Assembly (NCBI RefSeq): GCF_014193675.1
Contig: NZ_BLXZ01000003.1
Location: 558,001 to 622,000 of the forward strand
DNA length: 64,000 nucleotides
Reading direction: 5' to 3'
From: Geomonas limicola
Lineage (GTDB): Bacteria > Desulfobacterota > Desulfuromonadia > Geobacterales > Geobacteraceae
Shown here in pieces: positions 17,605-35,155 of the stretch (position 1 is the first letter of the stretch; every line of letters begins with the position of its first letter). The position numbers and the translations under genes are program-made. The notes below the pieces were generated by a model that did no database searches, was not told the DNA's origin, and worked only from the letters and a program-made list of their open reading frames with translations.

Positions 17605-18273
17605 ATGAATCTAACAGAGCTAAGCGACCGGCTGTTTTCGGCAATGATCGAGGCGGACCGCCCCGGTGCCTCAAACATCGTGGAAGAGGCGCTGTCGGGG
17701 GGTATCTCCCCGCGCGCCGTCATAGCCGACGTCCTCGACCCCGCCATCGTCAGGTTGGGCAAGCTGTGGGAAGAACAAGCGATGTCGCTGGCCCAGAATT
17801 TCGTGGCCTCAAAAATTGCCGAGGATACCCTCTTGCGCTGCGTCCCGGTGAGAAAGGACCGGGAATCCGGAAAGGGTTCGGTGGTGATCGGGAACATAGA
17901 GGATGATTTTCACAGCCTCGGCAGACGGGCCGTGAGCCTTTTTCTGGAGGCCGCAGGATGGGACGTCCATGACCTGGGCAACGACGTCCCGGCTGAGCAG
18001 TTCGTCGAAAAGGCTCTTGAGGTAGATGCCTGCGTCATCGCGGTCTCCGCCATGATGCAGACCACCGCCCTGAACATCCGCAAGGTCCGGGAGCTCCTCG
18101 ACGCAAACGACCTGAAGGGCTCCATCAAGCTCGCGGTCGGTGGGGCCGTTTTCAACTGGCGCCCGGAACTGGTGGCCGAGGTGGGTGGCGACGGCACCGC
18201 GTCCAACGCAATCGGTGCGGACGAATTGTGTCAAAGGCTCCGGACCGAGACAGGCAGGGCGGTGCAGCCATGA
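17605..18273 (+). CDS. Corrinoid (B12)-binding protein of methyltransferase type
   Basis: The 222-residue protein has the two-domain form of MtaC/MtbC-type corrinoid proteins. A helical cap (about 1-85, with GGISPRAVIADVLDPAIVRLG and LGKLWEEQ) precedes a Rossmann B12 domain (about 90-222). The cobalt-ligand motif DxHxxG is present as DFHSLG with His near 103, along with SAMMQTT and VGGAVFN loops. Such proteins carry a methyl group on cobalt between two methyltransferases. The start at 17605 follows AAAGGGACGACC. It is the first gene of a four-gene operon whose starts and stops overlap by 4 bp. No substrate-specific MtxB partner is nearby, so a carrier role in metabolism is uncertain. Confidence 0.9.
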   Translation: MNLTELSDRLFSAMIEADRPGASNIVEEALSGGISPRAVIADVLDPAIVRLGKLWEEQAMSLAQNFVASKIAEDTLLRCVPVRKDRESGKGSVVIGNIEDDFHSLGRRAVSLFLEAAGWDVHDLGNDVPAEQFVEKALEVDACVIAVSAMMQTTALNIRKVRELLDANDLKGSIKLAVGGAVFNWRPELVAEVGGDGTASNAIGADELCQRLRTETGRAVQP

Positions 18274-19295
18274 ATGCCTACCAGAGAGTGATGGGTACCC
18301 TGCTCGGCCAGCCGGTCGATCGCGTGCCGGCTTTTGCGGTATTGGGGGCCTATGGCGCCCGCCTTACCGGACTCGACCTGCGCACCTTGTACACCGACGC
18401 AACGGCGTACGTCTCGGGCCAACAGGCGGTGTACAACCAGTTCGGTTTCGACCTGGTCATCACCCCGTTCGTCTACACCGCCATAAGCGAGGCATTCGGC
18501 GGTGAGACTGCCTGGAGCATCAACCAGCCCCCCAACATGAAACGGCCCGGGTGGCCGTCGGCGGCCCGGGCGCTCCACGCGGAACTCCCCGTCCCCCAGA
18601 CGACCGCATGCCTGGCAACCGTCCTGGAGGCGACCGGCAGGCTCGCGGACCTCTACAAGCAGCAGGTCCCGATCGTCGCGGTGCTGCCCGGTCCGGGGAT
18701 CCTCCCCTCGCTGGTGATCGGCCTGGAACAGTGGATGGAGACCGTGCTCTTCGAACCGGAGTTGGCCCGCAGGCTCTCCGACCACCTGACCCCGTTCTTC
18801 GTCACCTGGGCAAATGCCCTACTGGCTGCAGGGGCCGACTGCCTGGTAATCACCGAGGGCATGGCATCTGCCGAGATAGCGCCTCGCGATCTCTTCGCAG
18901 AGCGTTTCCTTCCCCTGCTCACCACGACCTTTGCCCAGATCGATGGGCCTAAGGTGCTGCACCACACGGGGGGAAGGATCAATCACGTGCTCGACCTGGT
19001 GACCGGGCTGCCGGGGCTCGTCGCGCTGGCGATCGGCTCGAAAGACTCACTGGCCGAGGCAAGATCGATCGTGGGCCCCGACCTGAACCTCATCGGGAAC
19101 CTGGACAACCTCTCTTTCCCCTCGGCTAGCGTGGAACATATCTACCGTGCCTCCCGTGACTGCCTCCGCGAGGCTGCGGGAGGGGGGCACTTCATACTGG
19201 CTAATTCCGGTGCAGATATCCCGCTGTCCACCTCGCCAGAAAACCTGCACGCCATGCACCGGGCCGTAGCAGACGCCGTCAGGGAAGCGTCGTGA
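18270..19295 (+). CDS. UroD/MtaA-family protein lacking zinc-ligand cysteines
   Basis: The 341-residue TIM-barrel protein belongs to the uroporphyrinogen decarboxylase / methylcobamide:CoM methyltransferase (MtaA, MtbA, CmuA) superfamily. It opens MNAYQRVMGTLLGQPVDRVP and has GADCLVITEG, ENLHAMHRAV and GNLDNL blocks. In active MtaA-type enzymes zinc is bound by an His-x-Cys and a later Cys near the C-terminus. Here the first site reads LHHTGG (Thr for Cys, near 232) and the second ANSGADIP (Ala for Cys, near 314). Thiol methylation as in MtaA is therefore unlikely. The ATG at 18270 overlaps the stop of the corrinoid gene (ATGA), implying coupled translation and probable physical partnership. 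Confidence 0.88.
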   Translation: MNAYQRVMGTLLGQPVDRVPAFAVLGAYGARLTGLDLRTLYTDATAYVSGQQAVYNQFGFDLVITPFVYTAISEAFGGETAWSINQPPNMKRPGWPSAARALHAELPVPQTTACLATVLEATGRLADLYKQQVPIVAVLPGPGILPSLVIGLEQWMETVLFEPELARRLSDHLTPFFVTWANALLAAGADCLVITEGMASAEIAPRDLFAERFLPLLTTTFAQIDGPKVLHHTGGRINHVLDLVTGLPGLVALAIGSKDSLAEARSIVGPDLNLIGNLDNLSFPSASVEHIYRASRDCLREAAGGGHFILANSGADIPLSTSPENLHAMHRAVADAVREAS

Positions 19296-19900
19296 AGGCC
19301 GGCACGCTCTGGCTCAGTTGCGGGGTCCTGCGCCCCGAGTTGGAGGAGCTGCTGCGCACCTCCAGGATCGACGGCACCTTGCTCTGTTTGGACTCGATGC
19401 TGCACATGGAGCCGACCAAGCTGGAGCAGGCGCTCACGACGACCCTGGAACGCCTGTCAAAGAGAGCGGCGACCGTCGTGCTCGTCTACGGGGATTGCGC
19501 GGCCCACCTGCTCGACATCGTCAAGAGATTCAAGGTCGTCAGAATACCTTTCATCAACTGTGCGCAACTGCTGGTCGGACGAGAACGGTACCGCCAACTG
19601 ATGCGCGAGGGGGCCTTCCTGGTGCTCCCCGAATGGGCCCCCAAGTGGGAGCAGATCATTAAAAACGAGCTGGGGTTGGACAGGGGGGTGGCCCACGACC
19701 TGATGAGCGAACACCGGGGGGTGCTGGTCTACCTCGACACCGGCATCGTCGAGGTACCCTTAGAGCTGCTCCGCGAGTTTTCGGCATACACCGGACTGAC
19801 GTGGCGGGTCGAGCCGATATCTTTGGACCTCATGCTGGAGAGCCTGCTCGCGGCACAGTCCGAACCTCTCCAGGCGCATCCCGCAAAGGAGCGGGCATGA
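19292..19900 (+). CDS. DUF1638 family protein
   Basis: The 202-residue protein starts at GTG 19292, overlapping the stop of the UroD-like gene by 4 bp (GTGA). The pattern VVLVYGDCAAHLLDIV followed by RIPFINCAQLLVGRERY matches DUF1638, a family regularly found beside corrinoid proteins and MtaA-like enzymes. Several Cys residues (in LSCG, LLCLD, YGDCA, FINCA) could bind metal. No enzyme activity is known to me for the family. The C-terminal part (about 120-190) may contact the corrinoid protein; this is inference from context. Confidence 0.82.
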   Translation: MKAGTLWLSCGVLRPELEELLRTSRIDGTLLCLDSMLHMEPTKLEQALTTTLERLSKRAATVVLVYGDCAAHLLDIVKRFKVVRIPFINCAQLLVGRERYRQLMREGAFLVLPEWAPKWEQIIKNELGLDRGVAHDLMSEHRGVLVYLDTGIVEVPLELLREFSAYTGLTWRVEPISLDLMLESLLAAQSEPLQAHPAKERA

Positions 19901-21996
19901 ACGATATCCCGAGCAGACTCTCCGCACAGTTGATGGCCGTCGACATCATATCCGAGCTGCTGGTGTCCTCCGCGCCCCACACCCTCGGAGAACAGTTCAC
20001 CGCCCAGTTGCGCGAACTTACCGGGGCGAGAACTGCGATCCTCGTCGTCCACGATGCGTCGACGGGCCGTAACGAGATCCTTTCGGTAAGCCCGGAACGC
20101 CGTTCGGGCATCATCGCGGCCGACGAGGTGACCGCGCTGTGTGCCGCGGCAACGCAGCGCAGCCACCCTCTGGTCGTAGCAGAGCTTCCCGACGATCACC
20201 CGTCCAAGTCAGCCCTGTTGCACAACGGCGTCACCGACGTCGCCCCCTACCCACTTATCGTCGGCTGCGAAGCGGTCGGCACCTTGCTCCTGTTGAACCT
20301 CCCCGGCCTCGATCGCATCGAGGAAACCGACGATATCATCCACCTGCTTGCCCCCCCCATCGCCCTGGCCCTCAAGAATTCCCTCGCATTTCGTCAGATC
20401 GAGCGGCAGGCAAACGAGTTGGAGCACCAGGTCGAAGTCAGGACCGCACAGCTGATGCAGAAAAACGCCGAGTTGCAGCGGCTGGAAAACCTGCACAGGG
20501 CCATCGTCCTGTCGGCGATGGAGGGATTCTGCCTCGTCGACGCCACGTTGAAGATCGTCGATGTGAACGAGGCCTACTGTACGATGAGCGGTTATCTGCG
20601 TGGGGAGCTGATCGGAACCCAGATAGCCCAGCTCGACGCCATCGATTCCCCGGACGATGTGGCAGCTCGTGCGCGCAGGCTGATGGAGACCGGCTCGGAC
20701 AGGTTCGAGTCACAGCACCGCCGCAAAGACGGCAGCCTTTTCCCCGTCGAGGTGAGCGTAAGCTGTGTGCCCGTCGAGGATCTGCTGCTCTCGGTGTTCA
20801 TAAGGGATATATCCGACCGAAAGCTGGCGGAAGAGGCGCTGCGCCGCAGCGAGGAACAACTCCGGCAATCCCAGAAAATGGAGGCCATCGGTCAGCTTGC
20901 CGGAGGTGTGGCACATGATTTCAACAATATCCTCCAGGTGATCGAGGGATACTGTTCCCTTCTCCAGGTCGACCGTTTGCTGACCCAGGAGCAGCGGCAA
21001 AAGATCGACCAGATCGCCACCTCGGCCGATAAGGCCGCCCAGCTCACGCGCGGCCTGCTGACCTTCAGCCGGAAGCAGGCCCTGCTGATGAAACATGAGG
21101 ATCTCAACGACATCGTAAAGCATGTCCACCAACTCCTGGTGCGGGTCATCGGCGAGGACATCAACCTTACCGTGTCCTGCTGCGCTGCGAAACTCCCCAT
21201 CGTGGCCGATCGGGGGCAGATGGAGCAGGTACTCATCAACCTTGCCACCAACGCCCGTGATGCGATGTCGGGCGGCGGTGTTTTCACCGTCCAAAGCGAG
21301 CGGATCATCCTGGAGGACTCATTTTCCGGCACCCACGGGTACGACATTCCCCCCGGCGCATATGCCCGACTGACGGTATCCGATACCGGATGCGGCATCA
21401 AGAAGGAGCATCTGGAGCGTGTTTTCGAACCCTTTTTCACCACCAAGCAGGTGGGTAAAGGGACCGGGCTCGGGATGGCAATAACCTACGGCATCATCAA
21501 GCAGCACAACGGCCTCATTACCGTGTACAGCGAGCAAGGGCAAGGGACCATCTTCCGGATCTATCTCCCGATTGACGAAATGGCCGTGCAGCCTGTCGTC
21601 AAGAAGGAAGTGGCGCAGCCGGTGGGTGGCCAAGAAACCATACTGGTCGCCGAGGATGATCCTTTTGTCCGGTCTCTGGTGTCGAGTGTTCTGACGAGCT
21701 ACGGGTACCAGACCATCCTTGCGGCAGACGGTCAGGAGGCCATTGAGAGATACCAGGAGAACCAGGGGGAGATCTCGCTGATTCTTATGGACGTGATCAT
21801 GCCCAACAAGAACGGCCGGGAGGCCTTCGAGGAAATCCAACGGATCAGGCCGGGCGCGAAGGCACTTTTCACCAGTGGTTACACCGCGGACTTCATTCAG
21901 AAGAGAGGAGTCTCCGAGGAGGGGATCGAATTGATCATGAAGCCGGTGCAGCCGATGGATCTGCTGAGGAAGGTACGAGAGATGCTGGACGGATAA
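19897..21996 (+). CDS. Soluble hybrid histidine kinase (GAF-PAS-HK-REC)
   Basis: The start at ATG 19897 overlaps the DUF1638 stop by 4 bp (ATGA) and follows AAGGAG. The 699-residue protein has no membrane segment. An N-terminal GAF domain (about 15-165) is followed by a coiled coil (LEHQVEVRTAQLMQKNAELQ), a PAS domain (about 195-315), and the phospho-His in GGVAHDFNNILQ (near 339). The ATPase domain has NLATNARDAM, DTGCGI and GKGTGLGMAI. The C-terminal receiver has Asp in LILMDVIMPN (near 630). All predicted sensing is cytoplasmic, and its coupling to three corrinoid-pathway genes suggests it reads their state. The output partner is not in the window. Confidence 0.92.
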   Translation: MNDIPSRLSAQLMAVDIISELLVSSAPHTLGEQFTAQLRELTGARTAILVVHDASTGRNEILSVSPERRSGIIAADEVTALCAAATQRSHPLVVAELPDDHPSKSALLHNGVTDVAPYPLIVGCEAVGTLLLLNLPGLDRIEETDDIIHLLAPPIALALKNSLAFRQIERQANELEHQVEVRTAQLMQKNAELQRLENLHRAIVLSAMEGFCLVDATLKIVDVNEAYCTMSGYLRGELIGTQIAQLDAIDSPDDVAARARRLMETGSDRFESQHRRKDGSLFPVEVSVSCVPVEDLLLSVFIRDISDRKLAEEALRRSEEQLRQSQKMEAIGQLAGGVAHDFNNILQVIEGYCSLLQVDRLLTQEQRQKIDQIATSADKAAQLTRGLLTFSRKQALLMKHEDLNDIVKHVHQLLVRVIGEDINLTVSCCAAKLPIVADRGQMEQVLINLATNARDAMSGGGVFTVQSERIILEDSFSGTHGYDIPPGAYARLTVSDTGCGIKKEHLERVFEPFFTTKQVGKGTGLGMAITYGIIKQHNGLITVYSEQGQGTIFRIYLPIDEMAVQPVVKKEVAQPVGGQETILVAEDDPFVRSLVSSVLTSYGYQTILAADGQEAIERYQENQGEISLILMDVIMPNKNGREAFEEIQRIRPGAKALFTSGYTADFIQKRGVSEEGIELIMKPVQPMDLLRKVREMLDG

Positions 21997-33469: not shown

Positions 33470-35155
33470 ATGAAAATCGTCTTCGCCACCCTGCACGCCA
33501 AGTACGTGCACGCCTCGCTCGCCCTCCCCTATCTCGCCGCCACGGTGGCCGACCTCGAGGGGATCGAGTCGCAGATCCTGGAACTTACCGTGAACGAGCA
33601 ACCGGACCAGCTCCTGGCCCGACTCTTCGCCACCAACGCCGACGCACTCTTCTTCTCGTGCTACATCTGGAACACCGAACTCACCCTGAAGCTCGCCAGC
33701 GACCTGAAACAGCTCGCCCCCCACTCCCGCATCGTCCTGGGGGGACCTGAGGTCTCTTTCGGCTCCTTCGAACTGATGGTCCGCAACCCCTCAATCGACT
33801 GCATCGTGCGCGGCGAAGGGGAACTCACCTGCCGGGAGCTGGTGAGCGCCTGGCGCGCTGGCACCCCGCTCGAGGAGCTGGCCGGCATCTGCTACCGCGA
33901 GGGGGACGAGGTGATCGCCAACCCGGAACGCTCGCCTATTTCCGACCTGGACAGCATCCCCTCGCCCTTCGCCGCCGGGCTCGTCGACCTCGAAAAGCCG
34001 CTGACCTACTACGAGACCTCGCGCGGCTGCCCCTTTTCCTGCGCCTTCTGCCTCTCCTCGGTGGAGCGCGGGGTGCGCTCCTTCTCCGCCCAACGGATCG
34101 AGCGGGACCTCGAGACGCTGATCGCCGCGGGGGCCCGCACCGTGAAGCTGGTAGACCGCACCTTCAACTACGACGCCCGGCGCGCCGACCGGATCTGGCG
34201 CTTCATCCTCGACAAGAACTGCCAGGCGACCTTCCACTTCGAGATCGCCGCGGAGCTCTTGACCGACGAGAACCTGGCGCTTTTGGCCCAGGTGCCGCCG
34301 GGACAGTTCCGCTTCGAGATCGGGGTGCAGTCGGCAGGAGAGGCGACGCTCGCCCAGGTGGAGCGGCAGATGAGCCTCGAGAAGCTGAACGAGCGGGTGT
34401 CCCGGCTGATCCGGGAGACCGAGGTCACCGTGCACCTCGACCTGGTGGCCGGACTTCCCGGGGAAGGGTTTCCCGGTTTTCTCGATTCGCTGCAGGGGCT
34501 CTTCGACCTTGCCCCGAACCACATCCAGGTGGAGCCGCTCAAGGTCCTCAAAGGAACCGCCATGCGCGGCATCGCCCGCCGCGAGGGGTACGCCTACGCG
34601 GAGGCGGCGCCCTACAAGATACTCACCACCCCGTGGCTCGACTTCTGGGAGGTCCGGCGCATCGAGACGGTGAGCCGGCTGGTGGAGCTCTTCTACAACT
34701 CCGGCCGCTTTGTCGCGAGCCTCGCGGTCCTGACGGAAAAGGCCCCCCTGTCGCGGGTGTTCGCCGAGGTGGCCGTCTGGTTCGAGGAGCGGGGACTGGT
34801 GGGGCAGCTCTCCCTGGCGCTCCTTTTCGAAAAGCTCTGGGAGTTTGCCGGGGAACGGCTGGCGGGGGAGGAGCGGGAACGCCTGCAGGACGCGCTCTGC
34901 TTCGATTACTGCCTGGTGGGGTATCCGGGAGGGGCGCGCCCTGCATTTTTCACGGCGCAGGAGGAAGCGGTCCAGGCGGGGGCGCCGGCAAAGCTCCCGA
35001 AGGGTGGGAAGGACGAGCGGGTACGCTACTATCGGCGCCGCTTTGCCCGGGACTACCGGCAGACGCCCTGGCAGGAGGGGGAGCTGGTGATCAGCTTCCT
35101 GTACCGCTCGGCACCGGGGGCGGGGCTCAGGGTGGAAGTGGGCGGGGACGCGTAA
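33470..35155 (+). CDS. B12-binding-domain radical SAM protein (DUF4080)
   Basis: The 561-residue protein has an N-terminal B12-binding-type domain (about 1-130, MKIVFATLHAKYVHASLALP, VLGGPEV). A radical SAM core follows with the 4Fe-4S cluster motif CxxxCxxC in SRGCPFSCAFC (about 188-195), and a C-terminal DUF4080 region. The usual DxHxxG cobalt-ligand motif is not evident in the N-terminal domain, so corrinoid binding is unsure. Substrate unknown. Monocistronic. The next gene downstream on this strand starts at 35385. Confidence 0.88.
   Translation: MKIVFATLHAKYVHASLALPYLAATVADLEGIESQILELTVNEQPDQLLARLFATNADALFFSCYIWNTELTLKLASDLKQLAPHSRIVLGGPEVSFGSFELMVRNPSIDCIVRGEGELTCRELVSAWRAGTPLEELAGICYREGDEVIANPERSPISDLDSIPSPFAAGLVDLEKPLTYYETSRGCPFSCAFCLSSVERGVRSFSAQRIERDLETLIAAGARTVKLVDRTFNYDARRADRIWRFILDKNCQATFHFEIAAELLTDENLALLAQVPPGQFRFEIGVQSAGEATLAQVERQMSLEKLNERVSRLIRETEVTVHLDLVAGLPGEGFPGFLDSLQGLFDLAPNHIQVEPLKVLKGTAMRGIARREGYAYAEAAPYKILTTPWLDFWEVRRIETVSRLVELFYNSGRFVASLAVLTEKAPLSRVFAEVAVWFEERGLVGQLSLALLFEKLWEFAGERLAGEERERLQDALCFDYCLVGYPGGARPAFFTAQEEAVQAGAPAKLPKGGKDERVRYYRRRFARDYRQTPWQEGELVISFLYRSAPGAGLRVEVGGDA

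Follow-up and report, generated by a model that had tools for sequence, protein, structure and literature searches.

What is a soluble histidine kinase doing at the end of a row of genes that otherwise look like parts of a methyl-transfer pathway? We address this question for a four-gene set of Geomonas limicola, located in a window of 64,000 nucleotides (contig NZ_BLXZ01000003.1, positions 558,001 to 622,000, forward strand). The set encodes a corrinoid protein, a URO-D superfamily protein and a DUF1638 protein, here called the trio, followed by a hybrid kinase with a GAF domain at its N-terminus. In our judgement the four genes probably act as one sensory unit, in which the trio would serve as a corrinoid-based input module for soluble signaling proteins, with DUF1638 as the transmitter. 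The features are listed below in window positions; loci retrieved from genome contigs carry L numbers and their own coordinates.

17605..18273, + strand: corrinoid (B12) binding protein, MtaC/MtbC-like, 222 aa; PF02607 47.9 bits, PF02310 79.4 bits
17905..17922, + strand: DxHxxG cobalt-ligand motif, DFHSLG, residues 101-106, read from the sequence
18270..19295, + strand: URO-D superfamily protein, MtaA/CmuA-like fold without the MtaA HxC, 341 aa; PF01208 168.3 bits
19292..19900, + strand: DUF1638 protein, 202 aa, GTG start; PF07796 88.6 bits
19897..21996, + strand: hybrid histidine kinase, predicted soluble, 699 aa, GAF-PAS-HisKA-HATPase-REC (Pfam)
19897..20466, + strand: N-terminal GAF input domain of the kinase, assigned from co-variation with the trio and the GAF fold in homologues
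20491..20823, + strand: PAS domain of the kinase (PF13426, PF00989)
20890..21081, + strand: HisKA dimerization/phosphoacceptor domain (PF00512)
21208..21576, + strand: HATPase_c kinase catalytic domain (PF02518)
21640..21975, + strand: REC receiver domain (PF00072)

Sequence and Pfam searches confirm the set at the coordinates given in a preliminary description of this DNA, including overlaps of 4 bp at each of the three junctions (corrinoid/URO-D, URO-D/DUF1638 and DUF1638/kinase). The corrinoid protein is built from a cap domain (PF02607) and a Rossmann B12 domain (PF02310), and the intact cobalt-ligand motif, described as having its His near 103, indeed places it at His103 (codon 17911-17913). 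Its relatives in the PDB are 1y80 and 7xcn, and also 8j2w and 8j2x ('cobalamin-binding protein'), the last two of which we take to be entries associated with photocobilin-type B12 photoreceptors. The URO-D and DUF1638 proteins score well over their family cut-offs of 23.9 and 27 bits. In the kinase, PAS, HisKA, HATPase_c and REC all exceed the Pfam cut-offs, as befits a hybrid kinase. The highest 19-residue Kyte-Doolittle mean is 1.75 and falls inside the GAF domain, in agreement with a kinase described as having no membrane segment. The GAF domain itself reaches 20.7 bits in Pfam, below the cut-off of 22.4. Its assignment is supported by homologues, namely the confident model of a fusion protein at L110 and the GAF domain of L072, which at 23.5 bits passes the cut-off.

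Conservation of the four-gene set

The co-occurrence survey that the preliminary description had suggested as a check shows the kinase to be conserved with the trio. Searched against 141 genomes of the order, the DUF1638 protein matched in 64 and not in 77. In the 21 closest loci (L002-L022, at least 50% identity, window included), an open reading frame (ORF) matching the window kinase lies downstream without exception (21/21). Genome contigs were then scanned with a narrow DUF1638 alignment of 12 rows (A2, picked by similarity from the order search), because an alignment of 22 diverse DUF1638 rows (A1) was too variable for scanning. For this reason the 67 loci obtained stand for a single DUF1638 branch, and some of their genomes had already appeared in the order search (for example, G023 and L053 share coordinates). 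Locus annotation, identities, the tree and motif counts rest on profile hidden Markov models built in-house from these same loci.

The 67 loci are spread over about a dozen phyla, and a GAF-type gene directly follows DUF1638 in 65 of them. The two loci lacking a GAF match are L119, which ends at a contig edge, and L098, where a GAF-PAS ORF is followed by a separate kinase ORF. Upstream of DUF1638, profile annotation finds a URO-D gene in 64/67 loci and a corrinoid gene in 62/67, and contig edges explain all of the absent genes (3 URO-D, 5 corrinoid). By locus title, Thermodesulfobacteriota contribute 31 loci, Acidobacteriota 9, Spirochaetota 7, Bacteroidota 6, Myxococcota 2 and Planctomycetota 2. 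Omnitrophota, Verrucomicrobiota, Kiritimatiellota, Chloroflexota, Nitrospirota, Walliibacteriota and Riflebacteria contribute one each, and 3 of the 67 titles carry no phylum. Most loci come from metagenome-assembled genomes; named strains include Geomesophilobacter sediminis (L053), three Geomonas strains, Malonomonas rubra (L077) and Desulfopila aestuarii, and L073 belongs to Geomonas edaphica.

The cassette, as we call the set, is compact elsewhere too. Overlaps of 4 bp occur at 44/60 corrinoid/URO-D, 46/62 URO-D/DUF1638 and 22/65 DUF1638/GAF junctions, and 34 of 65 sets stand isolated, with no same-strand ORF within about 120-150 bp on either side. A kinase core is present within the GAF ORF at 59 of 65 loci.

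The GAF domain and DUF1638 as coupling parts

Which part of the kinase is tied to the trio can be seen from pairwise identities compared over the 54 loci having all five domains. GAF identity follows that of the corrinoid, URO-D and DUF1638 proteins with Pearson correlations of 0.91, 0.92 and 0.90 (Spearman 0.60, 0.72 and 0.59). The histidine-kinase core lies far below on both measures, with a Pearson correlation of 0.41 to each of the three and Spearman values of 0.24, 0.30 and 0.25. In addition, anything between about 0 and 557 residues separates the GAF domain from the kinase core, and 39 of the 65 GAF ORFs also include a receiver domain. Thus the GAF domain appears to be inherited together with the trio while the remainder of the protein is swapped, as would be predicted for an input port.

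When the GAF domain alone was searched for in 395 phylum genomes, 34 of them yielded a total of 40 matches and 361 yielded none; 30 of the 40 were retrieved with their flanks. The strong matches lie directly after DUF1638 in all four retrieved loci, and a fifth, G181:C428, is beside a DUF1638 match by coordinates. No DUF1638 match was found in the flanks of the 26 weak loci (0/26), which we read as ordinary GAF domains.

Natural fusions join the same parts. A fusion was counted when two domains lay in the same frame of one ORF, a strict rule adopted because ORFs called mechanically in GC-rich DNA had spurious extensions at the N-terminus. A single ORF holds both DUF1638 and GAF in 5/65 loci (L072, L094, L109, L110, L116), and both URO-D and DUF1638 in 3/62 (L075, L077, L102). 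At L072:10001-12568, corrinoid and URO-D genes precede a DUF1638-GAF-PAS-PAS-HD_5 protein, the same input with an HD-type output. In a second branch no match to the cassette GAF domain is found: Geomonas limicola itself has a second locus outside the window (L045; G000:C2:729000-748000; L045:6276-10619, minus strand), where corrinoid and URO-D genes are followed by an 877-aa DUF1638-PAS-HATPase-REC fusion; further DUF1638-kinase fusions occur at L047, L050 and L052. At L049:7118-10423 (minus strand), the partner is GGDEF, again after corrinoid and URO-D genes, and a direct link of corrinoid state to cyclic di-GMP is possible there. Since its fusion partners are so varied (GAF-kinases, kinases, GGDEF, HD_5), DUF1638 seems to act as an input domain to which various outputs can be attached. 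The L052 region (L052:826-12543, minus strand) is densely packed: it encodes a pair of corrinoid proteins (one 388 aa long, with an N-terminal part of unassigned identity), a URO-D protein, the DUF1638-kinase fusion and more kinases.

The predicted structure of the window DUF1638 protein is confident (predicted local distance difference test, pLDDT, 93.5; predicted template modeling score, pTM, 0.88). No PDB sequence relative of DUF1638 was found. Nor was a clear structural relative of the model: the best Foldseek E-value is 2e-3 (transcarbamoylases), and VIA Z values are all below 8, with CcpA and other LacI-type proteins in the top rows. In the model of the L110 DUF1638-GAF fusion (pLDDT 95, pTM 0.73), the last DUF1638 helix (180-227) runs almost straight into a GAF helix (229-244). 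This model is best matched by a dual-sensor histidine kinase (E 1.2e-9) and by phytochrome-type GAF domains; over its whole length TM-scores stay low (about 0.2-0.35), the match being driven by the GAF half.

Other DUF1638 proteins served as a control. A PF07796 search matched 94 of the 395 phylum genomes, and at the 30 best-scoring other DUF1638 loci no GAF, kinase or REC match lies within 1.5 kb (0/30), while a corrinoid gene adjoins DUF1638 at 17. In a tree of 113 DUF1638 domains, made by a quick method and with long branches flagged, the 30 control sequences separate from the kinase-linked branch with a support of 100. A single label change accounts for the 72 cassette sequences, although their own branch has a support of only 30; the second branch, without the cassette GAF domain, does not form a single group. 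Two proteins of the non-kinase DUF1638 branch, at L167:1336-3555 and L184:1399-3555, have DUF1638 fused to hydantoinase/oxoprolinase domains, possibly another arrangement for corrinoid activation.

Corrinoid chemistry, mechanism and rival explanations

DxHxxG is present in 75/76 corrinoid proteins, including that of the window, the exception being the second corrinoid protein of L052; Ser148 and Gly179-Gly180 are found in 76/76. The window protein thus has the cap, the Rossmann domain and the motif of methyltransferase corrinoid proteins, and scores 121 bits with TIGR02370 (MtaC/MtbC type), below the cut-off of 215.3. The URO-D protein had been called MtaA-like, which holds for the fold (PF01208) and fails for the motif: aligned with MtaA (4ay7), HIC and GC of MtaA face HHT and SGA, and its TIGR01463 (MtaA/CmuA) score is 120.8 bits against a cut-off of 235.4. 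HxC is absent from all URO-D partners (0/76). A Cys lies near the first MtaA site in 10 of the 76 and near the second in 12, with both in 3, again without HxC. The lost residues (HxC and the distal Cys) are presumably the zinc ligands of MtaA. With MtaA as the reference, and not CmuA or another URO-D-type MT1, their loss alone does not exclude methyl transfer. The URO-D partners have invariant residues of their own (Gly29, Gln51, Asp61, Gly77, Pro88, Gly151, Gly188), and in DUF1638, Cys69, Cys90, Trp115 and Trp119 are kept in 77/77 and Cys10 in 72, with 5 gaps.

An ordinary methyltransferase partner elsewhere in the genome, which according to the preliminary description would have explained the trio, did not turn up: MttB (PF06253) and MtaB (PF12176) gave 0 matches in the G. 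limicola genome, the MtmB and MtbB families not being searched for. Among 50 of the 67 cassette genomes, many of which may be incomplete, MttB was found in 4.

Among known systems, the trio resembles the methylotrophy parts MtaC/MtaA (MtbC/MtbA) in protein families and corrinoid motif, but differs in having no MttB/MtaB in the genome, no HxC in the URO-D protein and a linked kinase. CarH and photocobilin are one-protein B12 photoreceptors, in which a B12 domain is used for sensing; we know of no URO-D or DUF1638 partners for them. The helix-turn-helix domain that CarH-type proteins fuse to the B12 domain has no counterpart here, as the corrinoid protein holds PF02607 and PF02310 only. The mec dichloromethane cassette likewise clusters a corrinoid protein, a CmuA/MtaA-family protein and a histidine kinase (PMC9768040). 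However, its kinase is of the PocR type and it has an MTII and several MTI genes, with DUF1638 not named in its table. Here the kinase has no PocR and none of six neighbor ORFs is an MTII. In HbpS-SenS-SenR, an accessory protein binding tetrapyrroles, including aquo-cobalamin, modulates a kinase, but HbpS is secreted and GAF-like and not a methyltransferase-type corrinoid protein (PMC4991794).

DUF1638 has been cited for cobalamin recharging (PMC12478193). In Phaeobacter, where DUF1638 acts alongside an MtbC-like corrinoid protein and methionine synthase is split, it is tied to methionine synthesis, probably through B12 reactivation, with no specific proposal in the portion available (PMC5764234). 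By contrast, the DUF1638 proteins studied here adjoin kinases or sit in them; the Phaeobacter protein is outside our tree. Titles and abstract openings in the open-access literature, with subscription papers and bioRxiv preprints mostly outside the scope, contain no description of the module, and the accessible parts of PMC5847659, PMC3306737 and PMC10572898 hold nothing on a corrinoid/URO-D/DUF1638/kinase module. Kept together in many phyla, the set looks like a B12-based sensing device not yet described.

How might such a device work? The corrinoid protein, judging from its intact His motif, would carry a B12-type cofactor, and the URO-D protein would present a substrate or ligand to the cobalt. 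DUF1638 may dock on this pair and read the state of the cobalt, whether methylated, redox or ligand state. It would then change the conformation of the kinase's GAF domain, a physical coupling supported by the natural DUF1638-GAF fusions, and the kinase would in turn phosphorylate both its REC domain and some partner elsewhere. The preliminary description proposed that the trio feeds the kinase, and the conserved order, the fusions and the GAF co-variation strongly support this. Its further claim that a one-carbon or redox state is reported we still only infer, and the signal could be one-carbon state, cobalt redox or corrinoid supply. More tentatively, in a form that may well prove wrong, the cassettes could be a class of sensors in about a dozen phyla that use methyl transfer to a corrinoid for detection and not for metabolism, with the zinc-motif-less URO-D and corrinoid proteins as detector, and DUF1638 as plug-in transmitter, joined separately or through fusion to GAF-kinases, other kinases, a diguanylate cyclase and an HD-type phosphohydrolase. 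If the sensory reading holds, parts of one-carbon methyltransferases have found a second use in bacteria, as a sensor inside the cell. One DUF1638 branch would then have a function, as would 'orphan' MtaC/MtaA-like genes otherwise taken for methylotrophy genes, and there would be a testable route to what a set of soluble GAF kinases, in Geobacterales and elsewhere, respond to.

Several points weigh against a sensory unit. Corrinoid binding, complex formation and kinase control are predicted from sequence. The 67 loci were picked by similarity to one DUF1638 branch, and the many metagenome-assembled genomes among them may be incomplete or misbinned. Shared ancestry and a handful of close relatives account for part of the co-variation, and the rank correlations are lower than the Pearson values. 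The GAF ORF has no kinase core in 6/65 loci: L072 ends in HD_5, L079 and L103 have PAS only, L075 and L101 run off the contig, and at L095 a PAS-only ORF is followed by a kinase ORF. The RACo activase was found in only 25 of the 50 cassette genomes surveyed, therefore reductive recharging by RACo is not a constant partner. A metabolic role for DUF1638 is also possible by analogy with the Phaeobacter case (PMC5764234).

The alternatives differ in how well they meet the same evidence. The corrinoid protein could be an apo/holo gauge, with the kinase responding to B12 availability. A conserved cofactor motif without an MttB or MtaB partner in the genome suits such a gauge, as does the tie of DUF1638 to B12 handling in Phaeobacter (PMC5764234). 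It leaves unexplained the retention of a URO-D protein that has invariant residues of its own (Gln51, Asp61), and Rfam searches of the window and of 7 cassette loci found no cobalamin riboswitch; we regard it as unlikely. Somewhat more doubtful still is an ordinary catabolic methyltransferase operon, in which the URO-D protein would be MT1 or MT2 and the kinase would merely control expression. URO-D proteins can be MT1, as with CmuA and the candidate MecE, and the mec cassette also includes a kinase (PMC9768040). Such an operon, however, sits poorly with 34 of 65 sets being isolated, with annotated neighbors that include no MT1, with HxC in 0/76, and with DUF1638 fused inside kinases, a GGDEF protein and an HD_5 protein.

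The trio might instead have lost its corrinoid chemistry and become a pure protein scaffold for some other ligand, given that the URO-D protein lacks HxC and the conserved Cys of DUF1638 could bind metal. The cobalt-ligand motif in 75 of 76 corrinoid proteins and the invariant Ser148 and Gly179-Gly180 make this very improbable. As for the kinase being a hitchhiker downstream of a metabolic trio, its catalytic half varies greatly and follows the trio only weakly, but one particular GAF domain is kept in 65/67 loci over many phyla, together with fusions and 4-bp overlaps. We rejected it on GAF conservation and GAF-trio co-variation, and give it next to no credence.

Neighboring genes and other corrinoid-related loci

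Control of the set by a cobalamin riboswitch was rejected because the same Rfam searches, covering the window and the 7 loci, found none. Six ORFs near the set (11.3-29.3 kb) were run against Pfam and comprise an IS200-like transposase, an ankyrin protein, a phosphoenolpyruvate carboxylase, a Cache hybrid kinase and two without a match. Neither MT1 nor MTII is among them, in line with the earlier observation that no substrate-specific methyltransferase lies nearby. At the other cassettes, no conserved catabolic neighbor or MT1 was seen among 20 chosen neighbor ORFs (two of them beside L045) plus a few more. Seven of the 20 are matchless and several have two-component, PAS, GAF, PocR or SpoIIE domains; the other matches are T2SSE (beside L045), UvrA, RtcB, orotidine monophosphate decarboxylase, the S-adenosylmethionine-type Methyltransf_23, NMT1, HZS_alpha with F5/F8, and RUBY_RBDX with DUF2231 and PAS. 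At L089:3841-8243, two further proteins precede the cassette, one with the same GAF type and no kinase, the other a HAMP-PocR-GAF-PAS protein.

The G. limicola genome has four URO-D genes: a HemE-like one, those of the two cassettes and an orphan on contig C13. The orphan (G000:C13, L154:8581-9657, minus strand) scores 379 bits with the cassette profile, has no HxC and starts 3 bp downstream of a polyphosphate kinase gene; C13 gave no B12-binding match. The genome further gave one RACo activase match, 19 B12-binding matches and five B12-cap matches, two of which are the cassettes. A separate B12-binding domain protein at L188:1621-2139 (contig C9 of the same genome) has an ExHxxG-like motif by eye and is perhaps another B12-based regulator. 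Within the window, a 561-aa ORF at 33470-35155 has a B12-binding match (G000:C3:591488-591841) and by eye resembles a B12-dependent radical SAM protein.

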